Positions 16,840 to 20,833 of a stretch of 40,297 nt of DNA are shown here, piece after piece. A model generated the notes under the pieces. That model was not told the DNA's origin, made no database searches, and saw nothing but the letters and a program-made list of their open reading frames with translations. This DNA comes from Bacillota bacterium. Its GTDB lineage: Bacteria > Bacillota > Dethiobacteria > Dethiobacterales > Dethiobacteraceae. Each line of letters starts with the position of its first letter. The first letter of the stretch is position 1. Position numbers and translations under genes: made by a program. Location: the NCBI GenBank assembly GCA_012523945.1, contig JAAYSO010000113.1, positions 1 to 40,297 on the forward strand. The letters are read 5' to 3'.

Positions 16840-17823
16840 TTAGTAATCTTTCAAGATCAGCCTGGCCGTATTCAGGGCAGTTTCCAGTATTGCTTTGCAG
16901 TGTTTGGTTCTGGTATGGTAACCCGAATTTTTCGTTGTGGTCAGGCGGATTATGATTACTTCCGTACTTAAATCGTTTTGCATTTCTACGGTAAGACCCC
17001 TGTTTGCCGGAATTTTCCCCTTGTATTTTTGCAGGCCAAAACCGCTCTTTGCCGCAATGACACAATAAAAGTAGGGGTACTTTACACCTTGCACTTCATT
17101 CATCTGAATTTGTGCCTGCACCCCGTAGAAGCCTTCCGGCTGGTCCCCAAAAGCAATCATGAAGCGGGCATCCACCGGCACACTTTTACCGGTTTGATCA
17201 CGGGCAAGCAACAATGCCGGCACAAAAGTCTCATTTTCTTTTTTTAACAGCTGAAAATATTGTTCCAACTCCCGGATGATGGCGATTTTTCGCTGTAATT
17301 CACCTTGTTTAAGTACTTTTCTCGTTCCGTTAAACCATAAGGGCAAAACCAGGATGACCACGTCAAGTAAAAATATCAGTGCTACGTCAGTACTGTCGTA
17401 AAATGAAGTCAAAATAAAAGCTGTTATGCCTGCTGCTCCCGCCGCCAGGAGAAAGACAATAAAGCCCAGGCCGTTTGTAATGTCTAAAGCATCCAGATTC
17501 CAACTGTCAATCCTGTCACCGAGCTTTTTAATATCATGAATGCGCTCCATATCAACACTTGTCCAGTTCCTGTCGGGCACATAAGCTTCCAGCCGCACAC
17601 GACTGTCAAAGCCTGCCGCCAGGTTAAGGGCTGCGGCACAAAGTAAAAAAACAACTCCGGGAAAAGCTTTTACCAGCACCAATTGCACAATTATACCCAC
17701 AGCCACCAACAGCATATACCACCGCATTCTGGCTGTATAATTTAAATTTTTAAAAAAAATAAACTGTACCTCACCCTGTTTTTCCGGCGGTAGGAAACCA
17801 GGGATGCGCATTGATTTCCTCAT
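16840..17823 (-). CDS. Four-helix membrane protein of the Cys-repeat/radical SAM operon
   Basis: A 327-aa protein with no family I can name. Transmembrane segments lie near 34-51, 53-71, 117-140 and 146-164, as two hairpins separated by a polar loop (72-116, DRNWTSVDMERIHDIKKLGDR). A soluble C-terminal half (165-327) begins with a charged helix (LKQGELQRKIAIIRELEQYFQLLKKE). It has no heme, protease or ATPase motif. The start ATG at 17823 overlaps the radical SAM stop as ATGA, with GGGGAG upstream. Tight coupling makes it a likely functional partner, for example a membrane anchor or docking factor for the Cys-repeat protein. That role is inference. Confidence 0.75.
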   Translation of the reverse strand: MRKSMRIPGFLPPEKQGEVQFIFFKNLNYTARMRWYMLLVAVGIIVQLVLVKAFPGVVFLLCAAALNLAAGFDSRVRLEAYVPDRNWTSVDMERIHDIKKLGDRIDSWNLDALDITNGLGFIVFLLAAGAAGITAFILTSFYDSTDVALIFLLDVVILVLPLWFNGTRKVLKQGELQRKIAIIRELEQYFQLLKKENETFVPALLLARDQTGKSVPVDARFMIAFGDQPEGFYGVQAQIQMNEVQGVKYPYFYCVIAAKSGFGLQKYKGKIPANRGLTVEMQNDLSTEVIIIRLTTTKNSGYHTRTKHCKAILETALNTARLILKDY

Positions 17824-19154
17824 AGTGCTCCCCTTTCCGGTACCGGTCCCTGAGACTGCCAAAAACCCTCCAGTTCTTCACAGCCGTGAACATTGAAATA
17901 TAATGGACAGGCTCCCTGGCAGACGGCAAAATGACAGCATTCTTTACAAAGTTTGGGGGCAGCTTCTTTGCCGCGAATCCAAACACTTTGTTTTTTATTC
18001 CAGACGACTGCAAACCCTTCAGTAAGCAGGTTACCAACAGGCTGGGACCAGCTTGAACAGGGCAGAACATTACCCTGTGCATCAACCGATAAAAGCCCTT
18101 CACAGGCACTGCACCCCTTATTGCCCAATCCTGCCGCCACAGGATTAAAGAGACAAAGAGGCGTGGGAGAATACCACATAAATTCAATGCCGGCCGCTGC
18201 CGCCGCCTGCATAATCTGTTCAATAATCTCACCAATTTCCGTATAGCTGACCTTCAGTTCTGCATCTGTTCCGCGTCCGGCCGGAATTACCAGGTTGGCG
18301 GAAAATCTTTCGGCACCAATACTGCGCGCAAATTCAGGGTAATCAGTCACTGAATCTTTATTCAGCCGGCAAACGGTAAAATGGGGATGCACCCGCACCC
18401 CTGCCCGCATTAGCGCCTTCAGGCCGGTTACGGAAGCTTCATGAGAACCGGTAACACCGGTAATGGCATCGTGTTCCTCGGGATGAGCGGATTCAATGCT
18501 GACCTGGGCCGAAGCCAGACCTGCCCGCACCATTTCTTTGGCTTTGTGCCGGTTGATGAGGATACCATTTGTAATCAGGTTCACTCTCATGCCGTTATTT
18601 TGCGAGGCATATTTTATCAGCTCCGTTAACCCGGGAAATAAAAGCGGCTCACCTCCGGTAAAAGATACACTGGGGACTTCAGCTTCATAACGGATAATAT
18701 CCAGGACTTTTTTAAACCCGTCCAAATCCAGCTGATTCTCTTTTTTGTTTTCTGTACAGCCTGCATAACAAAAACGGCACTTAATATTGCAGGCGGACGT
18801 TACGGCAACTTCCGACAAGACAGGCAGTTGAATATAACCTAAACTGAATTCACGCCTGATAATTGCCGGCGTGGAATAGTTTTCACATACTTCATTGTTC
18901 CACATTCGCGTCAAATCAATAAAAAAGCGTTCCAGCTGTTCTGCTGTTTCCGGTTCCCATTCCCTGGCTTGAAGAATATCCAGGATGGAACCGCCGTTTA
19001 AAATATGGGCCACAATCCGGGCACCAGTAGGATTTAGTTTAAAAGCTTCATTGGGCATGCGGATAAGGACGTTATCCTGCAGGCGCATATACACGTATGG
19101 TTTGATCTGCCGCAAAAAATCATCAACCCAGGTGAGGCGGTGTTTTTTTCTCAT
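17820..19154 (-). CDS. Radical SAM/SPASM peptide-modifying enzyme with N-terminal PqqD-like domain
   Basis: A 444-aa protein. Residues about 12-90 look like a PqqD/RRE peptide-recognition domain (NVLIRMPNEAFKLNPTGARIVAHILNGGSILDIL). The radical SAM cluster motif is C122-x3-C126-x2-C129 with aromatic Tyr130, and the SAM-binding FTGGEP is at 165-170. The C-terminal SPASM domain has all seven expected cysteines: C351-x9-G-x4-C366, C403-x2-C406-x5-C412-x3-C416 and C425, so two auxiliary 4Fe-4S clusters are likely. This architecture is that of PqqE, sactisynthase and ranthipeptide (SCIFF-type) synthases. The ATG at 19154 overlaps the previous stop as ATGA and has GGAGG upstream. A longer reading to 19235 is only an out-of-frame translation of the Cys-repeat DNA. 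Its likely substrate is the tail encoded just upstream. Confidence 0.9.
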   Translation of the reverse strand: MRKKHRLTWVDDFLRQIKPYVYMRLQDNVLIRMPNEAFKLNPTGARIVAHILNGGSILDILQAREWEPETAEQLERFFIDLTRMWNNEVCENYSTPAIIRREFSLGYIQLPVLSEVAVTSACNIKCRFCYAGCTENKKENQLDLDGFKKVLDIIRYEAEVPSVSFTGGEPLLFPGLTELIKYASQNNGMRVNLITNGILINRHKAKEMVRAGLASAQVSIESAHPEEHDAITGVTGSHEASVTGLKALMRAGVRVHPHFTVCRLNKDSVTDYPEFARSIGAERFSANLVIPAGRGTDAELKVSYTEIGEIIEQIMQAAAAAGIEFMWYSPTPLCLFNPVAAGLGNKGCSACEGLLSVDAQGNVLPCSSWSQPVGNLLTEGFAVVWNKKQSVWIRGKEAAPKLCKECCHFAVCQGACPLYFNVHGCEELEGFWQSQGPVPERGAL

Positions 19155-20833
19155 CGCGCACCTCCGCTGACACAGGCGGAATGGCAGGCCGAGTGACAAG
19201 CCGAATGGCAAGCGGAGTGACAGGCGGAATGACACGCCGAATGGCAGGCATCATGGCAGGCGGAATGACAGACAAAAACTCCCGGACCTGAATTTAAAAC
19301 AGAATCTAATGACTGCTGCTGCGGTTTGACAGGAATGGATTTGGTAAACCGGTTGGCATTACTCCTGTATCTTAGGCCGCTACGGTGAAAGTACCAGTAG
19401 GGCCAGTAACCGGCAAAAACAGCACCCCTGTCTTTTGTCTTCAATTCAGGCAGTTCTCCTTCTTTTTCTTTGACGGCTGCTGCAATTTGCTCCCGGTAAT
19501 ATTTACGTGTTGCTTCCAAATCACAATCCCAGGTTTTCTTTTGCACATTTTCAATAATTTTTTGCAAAATTGCTTCCAGTTCTTTTTCTGAGAAACGGCC
19601 GTCTGCAGCAGCATCGTACATCATTTTTTCATACTCATTGAGCTCAGGGGACGCTGAAAACAGGCTATCCCTGATCACACGACGTACCTGAAGTGGATCC
19701 CTGGACACTTCCTCGAGATAACCCTTTTCTATCAGTTTAGCCAGGATGGCAGAGAGAATGCTTTGATAAGATACCCCTAAAAACATGGCCGCCTCAATGC
19801 TGTCCAAATCTTTGGCAATGGTTCCGTCCTTACGGAAGGAGGCAATTTCAAGTTTCGGCGGCTCCCAGTCAGTTCTGGCCCATTGCACTTCATCAAGTGT
19901 TGACCGGGCCCGTACCAGGGAACGATGCTTTCTGCCCACGGCAAAAAAGGTAACGACTAAAAGCCCTGCCAGCGCCAGGAGCAACCCTGCCCTGCCGCTG
20001 CCAGTACTTACAGGCTTCCGCTCCTGGCCGCTTCTCACCTGTTCCCAGCCTGATCTTGGCGGTGAGGGCGCTACAGGTGCAGCTTTACTGCCTGTACTGC
20101 TTGATGCAGGCAAGGTAAAAACATCTGCGGCAATATACTGCTGAATGCGAAATTGATAACGTGGCCCGGGAGCTTCTTTATGCAGCAATACCTGCGCCCA
20201 TGCAGTACCGTCAACTAAATTTTTGCGGTAATCAATGAGGTACTCATCATTCATCCACGGTTCCGTGGCAAAACCCTGCGACAGTAACAGGGCCTCTATT
20301 TCTTCCCTGGTCTCCTCTTCCACCAGCTCAAGAGGATAGTTAACTGTAACCGTATAATGTTCCATCTTCTCATCCCATTGCGTGGGAGACCAGTTAAAAA
20401 CAACAAGCGGGCTGCCGTCAGCTGCTGTTGTGCGTGCCAGGTACCCTGCTTCATACATATCTGTGGCAAAGCGGAATTTATAGGTCAGATACTCTCCGCC
20501 CAAACGTTTTTCTCCGGCATGAATGATATCATAGTTACCGCCGCCCAGATTCACAATTTCTATCTCAAAAGCAGTATTATCATCTGTTATGACCCAGGCA
20601 TGTTCTTTGTCAAAAACCGGCTTTAACCTGTCAAAACCTGAAACGGTAAAAGCCAGCATCGTCTGCCCCGGCACCAGGTTGTAGCGTACGGTATAACTAA
20701 TTACAGCCTTACCGTCCTCCAGTAAAAGCACATCAGTTTCCACAAAGCCTAAATGAGCAACTGCGGCCTGCGCGTTGCCCACCGGCAGAACCAACAGTAA
20801 TAAGATCAGGCAGCCAAATAATAATTTTTTCAT
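19151..20833 (-). CDS. DUF2207-like membrane protein with (Cys-His-Ser-Ala)n C-terminal tail
   Basis: A 560-aa protein. A signal peptide (1-23, ending NAQA) is followed by an extracytoplasmic beta-rich domain (about 24-235) resembling the DUF2207 N-terminal region. Then come a Ser/Pro-rich linker (236-280), one transmembrane helix (282-299) and a cytoplasmic part (300-520) containing a winged-helix-like stretch (DLDSIEAAMFLGVSYQSILSAILAKLIEKGYLEE). The tail carries Cys522, 526, 530, 534, 538, 542, 546, 550 and 554: eight CH[S/D]A units, a ninth Cys and VSGGAR. The tail is predicted cytoplasmic, where a radical SAM enzyme could reach it. It is first in a three-gene operon. The ATG has GGTGGAG upstream. 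The DUF2207 assignment is moderate; the tail is read directly. Confidence 0.85.
   Translation of the reverse strand: MKKLLFGCLILLLLVLPVGNAQAAVAHLGFVETDVLLLEDGKAVISYTVRYNLVPGQTMLAFTVSGFDRLKPVFDKEHAWVITDDNTAFEIEIVNLGGGNYDIIHAGEKRLGGEYLTYKFRFATDMYEAGYLARTTAADGSPLVVFNWSPTQWDEKMEHYTVTVNYPLELVEEETREEIEALLLSQGFATEPWMNDEYLIDYRKNLVDGTAWAQVLLHKEAPGPRYQFRIQQYIAADVFTLPASSSTGSKAAPVAPSPPRSGWEQVRSGQERKPVSTGSGRAGLLLALAGLLVVTFFAVGRKHRSLVRARSTLDEVQWARTDWEPPKLEIASFRKDGTIAKDLDSIEAAMFLGVSYQSILSAILAKLIEKGYLEEVSRDPLQVRRVIRDSLFSASPELNEYEKMMYDAAADGRFSEKELEAILQKIIENVQKKTWDCDLEATRKYYREQIAAAVKEKEGELPELKTKDRGAVFAGYWPYWYFHRSGLRYRSNANRFTKSIPVKPQQQSLDSVLNSGPGVFVCHSACHDACHSACHSACHSACHSACHSACHSACVSGGAR
19172..19270 (-). repeat. 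12-bp coding tandem repeat for the Cys-His-Ser-Ala tail
   Basis: Eight 12-bp units plus a final Cys codon. Synonymous positions vary (TGT/TGC, CAT/CAC, TCC/TCG, GCC/GCG/GCT) while the amino acids stay fixed, except for Asp in unit 2. This argues for selection on the peptide rather than recent slippage. Confidence 0.9.

Follow-up and report, generated by a model that had tools for sequence, protein, structure and literature searches.

We describe a three-gene cassette in which a radical SAM/SPASM enzyme (P2) is encoded together with a DUF2207-family membrane protein (P1) that ends in a Cys repeat, and with a further membrane protein (P3). It was found in the window, as we call the whole stretch of 40,297 nucleotides of Bacillota DNA that was analysed. 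Comparison across genomes links the three genes, assigns P1 to DUF2207, finds the repeat where that family ordinarily carries a Gly-rich tail, and sees the enzyme follow two further Cys-tail sequences. On balance, we lean towards the reading that P2 modifies the cytoplasmic tail of P1 in place, its RRE docking on the segment before the tail, with thioethers as the likeliest product, which would be kept on the protein.

Layout of the locus and family membership of P1

All three genes lie on the minus strand, P1 (560 aa) at 19151..20833, P2 (444 aa) at 17820..19154 and P3 (327 aa) at 16840..17823, and the two ATGA overlaps that a preliminary description of this DNA had reported are indeed present, P1/P2 and P2/P3 each sharing four bases. 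The same description had given P1 a signal peptide, one transmembrane helix and a cytoplasmic C-terminus, and our predictions agree: a signal peptide (residues 1-24) is followed by an ectodomain (25-240), one strong TM (approx. 279-301) and a cytoplasmic DUF2207-like helical domain (approx. 340-460), and the C-terminus is predicted to be cytoplasmic because the positively charged GRKHRSLVRAR stands directly after the TM. Behind a variable linker come a pre-tail segment (residues 493-521, 19271..19357, minus strand; NRYExSxPVNPDNxSFxSxLDSxxGxFA), which is a putative leader-like recognition segment, and the Cys tail itself (residues 522-560, 19154..19270, minus strand), the presumed core for P2. 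The tail reads CHSA CHDA (CHSA)x6 C VSGGAR, i.e., eight CH[S/D]A units plus a Cys and then VSGGAR, and its Cys residues stand at 522, 526, 530, 534, 538, 542, 546, 550 and 554, the positions claimed earlier. The last P1 codons, GTC AGC GGA GGT GCG CGA (19154..19171, minus strand), serve at the same time as the P2 Shine-Dalgarno sequence (GGAGGTG) and reach into the ATGA start overlap. P3 is, as had been proposed, a predicted membrane protein; it has about four TM segments, and its C-terminal cytoplasmic domain carries an invariant YPYFYC. Weak CptA_toxin matches were seen in 5 of 16 P3 members (E 0.003), and this identity was dropped as the matches are too weak.

The preliminary description left the family of P1 unnamed. 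The window P1 alone gives no Pfam match, and single-protein Pfam and NCBIfam scans of P1 and P3 were uninformative; the family matches of both came from alignment-wide scans. In such scans the DUF2207 N-terminal domain (PF09972) was matched by 5 of 17 P1 members (best E 1.8e-5), and the P1 family aligned with 20 ordinary DUF2207 proteins by hhalign with E 4.6e-9 over the cytoplasmic domain. Judged by these profile matches, both the ectodomain and the cytoplasmic domain of P1 belong to the DUF2207 family, of which P1 is a divergent member. Ordinary DUF2207 proteins (PF09972/PF20990, e.g., SMU.243) are alike in having an exported N-terminal domain, a TM, a cytoplasmic domain and a low-complexity C-terminal tail, while P1 differs in carrying a Cys repeat for the Gly-rich tail and in its accompanying radical SAM gene. 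For SMU.243 of S. mutans, a Gly/Ser-rich intracellular C-terminus has been described (PMC10457818). A paper on 5-thiohistidine mentions a DUF2207/LemA pair and concludes that the pair is unlinked to that chemistry (PMC12631010).

The 20 ordinary DUF2207 proteins were drawn from the phylum by the Pfam model, and our negative control rests on these loci. Every one of them (20/20) has a Gly-rich C-terminal tail, e.g., GGGFSGGGGGGGGGGVGAR, so the Cys repeat occupies the place of the parent family's Gly-rich tail; the Gly/Ser-rich feature is absent from P1, which has the CHSA repeat instead, and only SGGAR is still similar. No A2-type radical SAM gene was found near the 20 Gly-tailed proteins in the flanks examined, some of which are short at contig ends. 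One genome, G106, holds both kinds, a Gly-tailed DUF2207 protein without the radical SAM gene and a CHSA-tailed one with it. As for the domains of P1, the cytoplasmic DUF2207 domain has weak winged-helix matches such as TrmB, and the ectodomain fold matches ribophorin I and the N-domains of M1 aminopeptidases (Z 15.7 to 12.5, 6-10% identity), which we read only as a shared beta-rich fold and not as functional kinship. A sequence search of solved structures with P1 gave no match.

Constraint on the tail and linkage of the three genes

Among 17 relatives, the repeat region has 8 or 9 units (39 or 43 residues). Its mean pairwise identity is 96%; the ectodomain reaches 68%, the cytoplasmic domain 63%, the pre-tail segment 47% and the linkers 13-20% (20% in the linker at 461-476). 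The pre-tail segment is thus moderately conserved, and in two members it is poorly alignable. The Cys, His and Ala of every unit are invariant except for one first Cys, and the third position takes S, D or T. The exception is the P1 tail at L054, where the first Cys is replaced by Trp (KFAWHSAC); this is the sole loss of a tail Cys that we have seen, and the first tail Cys may be dispensable. The 24 repeat codons show 1815 synonymous versus 118 non-synonymous pairwise differences between genomes, and because synonymous changes far outnumber non-synonymous ones, selection acts on the tail as protein. The conservation of SGGA may be partly translational, since the last P1 codons double as the P2 Shine-Dalgarno sequence. 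A reading of the tail as a c-type heme CX3CH site was set aside, as the units overlap and the tail is predicted to be cytoplasmic.

The P1-P2-P3 cassette is present in 18 genomes of scattered anaerobic bacteria. In all 18 loci, which were read in detail, P1, P2 and P3 or their recognisable remains occur together and always in the order P1-P2-P3, and the Cys tail is encoded at every one of the 18 radical SAM loci, out of frame in one decayed locus. P1 and P2 overlap as NTGA, by four bases, in all 17 loci compared. Flanking genes are common to only a few, more closely related loci; therefore, the three genes form a self-contained cassette. Hosts found through the radical SAM gene include Acetivibrio alkalicellulosi and three clostridial MAGs; within the Acetivibrio order, 12 of 58 genomes carry the cassette, and in an unrelated family one genome out of six does.

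Most of the 18 loci were ascertained through the radical SAM gene and so test the direction from enzyme to tail. The opposite direction rests on three genomes found by the tail pattern, one of which is the window itself. In 398 genomes drawn evenly from the phylum, the pattern was found in three, every time as the tail of P1, and the radical SAM gene was present in all three, recovered here by the tail pattern alone. No second copy of the pattern was found in the window's own genome. The occurrence of the P1 tail pattern, in 3 of 398 phylum genomes and once in the source genome, is beyond chance expectation. Viral contigs gave 12 matches to the pattern, all of them short, simple and unrelated repeats.

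Several loci are damaged. In G488 (L063:5929-8914), an internal deletion in P1 removes the TM and the cytoplasmic domain and shifts the still intact CHSA-coding stretch out of the reading frame. P2, truncated at its C-terminus, forms a fusion with P3; as both are damaged in this genome, P1 and P2 appear to decay together. P2 is also broken in G496 (L064), which may be a sequencing error because other ORFs nearby are broken too. Early frameshifts in P1 were observed at L040:7899-9631 (G106) and in L041 (G001), at different places, and L041 has in addition a frameshift in an otherwise conserved P3; the frameshifts in these two genomes are possibly assembly errors.

The enzyme and its relatives beside other Cys tails

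P2 matches Radical_SAM (PF04055) with E 5.3e-25 and SPASM with E 2e-7. The CxxxCxxC core that had been read in it is confirmed by 16 relatives, with C122, C126 and C129 invariant in all 16. The claim of a complete seven-Cys SPASM domain is borne out in part: its first two parts, CX9-15GX4C (C351-G361-C366) and CX2CX5CX3C (C403/406/412/416), are present and invariant, and the proposed seventh Cys, C425, is retained in just 11 of the 16. The invariant Cys residues of the SPASM region in these 16 relatives are C348, C351, C366, C403, C406, C412 and C416, and C348 may replace C425 as the final SPASM Cys. The N-terminal PqqD/RRE-like domain (approx. residues 17-95) was likewise only partly upheld, being recognisable by fold (SkfB, SuiB) and weak by sequence. 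A PqqD match was obtained for 5 of 16 members with a best E of 0.011, under the cut-off, and a sequence search of solved structures with this domain recovered no PqqD/RRE chain. As an AlphaFold2 model, P2 aligns with SkfB over 310 residues (Z 22.9) and with SuiB over 290 residues (Z 22.1), and these alignments begin at P2 residue 24-27 and so reach into the RRE of both. The model has a pLDDT of 59 overall, with low confidence in the RRE region, and the structure models were built on shallow alignments. The structures of anSME and PqqE also align well with P2 (Z about 20).

The P2 family is discrete, with members above 860 bits and the next best below 232 bits in 397 genomes. None of the NCBIfam RiPP-maturase models reaches its cut-off for P2. 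The best NCBIfam score is that of NirJ2 (139.9 vs. a cut-off of 500), and others lie lower still (SkfB 80.9 vs. 300, PapB 76.6 vs. 340 and HxsC4 73.3 vs. 500 bits). P2 is about equally distant from NirJ2, AhbD, GeoRSP, mycofactocin, PqqE and PapB, and as all maturase models stay under their cut-offs, there is no support by sequence for the SCIFF maturase as its closest relative.

The ten next-best radical SAM proteins, a sample picked by score and not at random, extend the comparison. Nine of the ten adjoin a DUF2207-type protein whose Cys tail has another sequence, CACACACACA or CACVSCACACVSCACACACA, and the tenth locus is N-masked; the two that were compared with P2 are 35-39% identical to it. 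No relative of P3 was found at the loci of these proteins. In a second pair, known from three loci (L080:2532-5278, L081:4661-7344 and L089:2397-5163), a DUF2207-like protein of about 480 aa ending in GGSSCACACACACASSGGCT is encoded directly upstream of a radical SAM/SPASM gene, and we observed two conserved exported proteins downstream. In a third pair, known from six loci, CACVSCACACVSCACACACA or a close variant follows a Gly-rich stretch of the protein adjacent to the radical SAM gene. At L082:2311-6505, L083:241-4162, L084:2232-6567, L086:4484-8619 and L087:4337-8011 we observed the radical SAM/SPASM gene and then a SGGGGGFGGRSIGCACVSCACACVSCACACACA protein; several loci of this pair have a LemA-type gene downstream, and some of the tail proteins are fused to a TPM domain. 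The radical SAM gene of the third pair is present in 13 of 17 genomes of one class, and further search gave four more genomes with the CACVSCACACVSCACACACA-type arrangement.

The proteins with these other Cys tails align with ordinary DUF2207 proteins (hhalign 1.4e-6 and 1.5e-4), and the GGSSCACACACACASSGGCT protein aligns with P1 (hhalign 7e-10). One Cys tail beside this radical SAM lineage, CACACACA, is free of His. Across the wider group two things are constant, a DUF2207-type protein whose tail is rich in Cys and a radical SAM/SPASM enzyme. Since near relatives pair with different Cys tails and P3 is absent, the enzyme tracks the Cys tail and not the exact repeat or P3. Cys and Ala are common to the kinds of tail but their spacing is not, and the bond formed may therefore differ between them. 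A radical SAM gene of this kind regularly without a Cys-repeat protein nearby would speak against the pairing, and this was not seen, as 18/18 cassettes and 9/10 relatives are tailed. The earlier proposal that a large membrane protein is the substrate of P2, through its tail, accordingly has comparison in its favour (18/18 loci, 9/10 relatives, 0/20 Gly-tailed DUF2207 proteins).

Possible modification of the tail and its meaning

We infer that the tail is the substrate of P2, that the RRE would bind the pre-tail segment, and that the chemistry would be that of thioethers. In the mechanism we propose, the RRE of P2 would dock on the P1 segment just before the tail (approx. residues 493-521), and the enzyme would then work along the repeat units in the cytoplasm, where thioether links would most likely connect Cys sulfur with a neighbouring residue in every unit. 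Regular Cys spacing together with the fold of P2 suggests such bonds, and by analogy thioether crosslinks are the best-precedented chemistry for P2. One radical SAM enzyme, PapB, makes six Cys-Asp thioethers in CX3D motifs (PMC9413430), a precedent for multiple crosslinks at intervals of four residues. The product would be neither cut off nor exported and would persist as a permanent domain of the DUF2207-family protein in the membrane; no exporter and no peptidase or protease is common to the 18 cassette loci, so it presumably remains on P1.

It seems rather unlikely, though worth weighing, that the tail is left unmodified and serves a membrane sensor as a Cys/His metal-binding or redox element, and that P2 acts elsewhere (on P1, P3 or another substrate). 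Nine Cys and eight His stand at fixed spacing, both invariant in nearly every unit, a reducing cytoplasm could load metal, and the weak winged-helix matches (TrmB) in the cytoplasmic domain might fit a sensor. However, the same radical SAM lineage adjoins differently built Cys tails, including the one that lacks His, the enzyme is absent beside Gly-tailed DUF2207 proteins, and P3 is not shared. The tail may bind metal in modified or unmodified form, and such binding is in itself compatible with modification by P2. We give still less weight to the idea that P2 modifies the tail in another way, by epimerisation, by a C-C or Cys-His linkage, or by Cys/Ser oxidation of the kind known from anaerobic sulfatase maturation. 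The similar distance of P2 from many SPASM families and its good alignment with the anSME and PqqE structures would suit such chemistry, but Cys is central to each unit in all kinds of tail. The best full-length folds that include the RRE are those of SkfB, which makes Cys thioethers, and SuiB, which forms a C-C bond, and these leave the chemistries unseparated.

It is very improbable that the repeat is conserved for its mRNA, through translational coupling to P2, or that it is a tandem-repeat artefact. The end of the tail (SGGA) does encode the P2 Shine-Dalgarno sequence and overlaps the start codon, so the last codons are doubly constrained, and there may be mRNA-level constraint on the final SGGA. 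For the units, however, this explanation is refuted, as they are free at synonymous sites (1815 vs. 118) while the protein is fixed, and the pattern matches in viral contigs are short unrelated repeats.

Our preferred reading, modification of the P1 tail in place, can be set against known systems. The maturases of ranthipeptides (PapB/freyrasin; CteB/SCIFF, thermocellin) are alike in that an RRE-containing radical SAM/SPASM enzyme stands beside a substrate with evenly spaced Cys. In the cassette, however, the presumed substrate forms the end of a membrane protein of 560 aa, its repeat is of the CX3C type and keeps His and Ala fixed, the loci share no exporter or peptidase, the PapB model reaches 76.6 of the required 340 bits, and the chemistry is a prediction. 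A small dedicated precursor with leader and core, as in ranthipeptides, SCIFF or sactipeptides, is not what we find, since in intact genes the repeat ends a membrane protein of 530-600 aa. QhpD is a radical SAM/SPASM enzyme that forms Cys-Asp/Glu thioethers in the small subunit of quinohemoprotein amine dehydrogenase, and the likeness is that the modified protein is kept and used and not released as a peptide; its substrate, a small periplasmic enzyme subunit, is unlike P1 with its repeat tail and membrane anchor. His-Xaa-Ser (Hxs) systems also pair one or more radical SAM genes with a repeat-bearing protein. Their repeat has three residues and no Cys, whereas that of the cassette is CHSA, and no Hxs model comes near its cut-off (HxsC4 73.3 vs. 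500 bits). In the open-access literature and the NCBIfam models, we found no description of the pairing of a DUF2207-type Cys tail with a radical SAM enzyme, and searches of the open-access literature for the CHSACHS peptide, for DUF2207 with radical SAM, for CA-type tails and for Cys-rich membrane proteins in connection with radical SAM enzymes gave no relevant paper.

To generalise, and here our confidence falls slightly short of even, the Gly tails of DUF2207-type proteins, some of them near LemA and TPM, may have given way in several Bacillota lineages to Cys repeats (CHSA, CACA, CACVSC) that are crosslinked in place by dedicated RRE-radical SAM/SPASM enzymes. In this general class, the outcome of RiPP chemistry would be no secreted peptide but a permanent part of a membrane protein, with a structural or metal/redox role. 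If the reading of the cassette is true, RRE-radical SAM/SPASM chemistry contributes a lasting part to a large membrane protein, and the search for substrates widens from short ORFs to the tails of big proteins. The repeat is a ready substrate for studying how one enzyme handles eight or nine near-identical units. The cassette also offers an initial way into the function of DUF2207/LemA proteins, a widespread group in which the role of the tail is testable by exchange.
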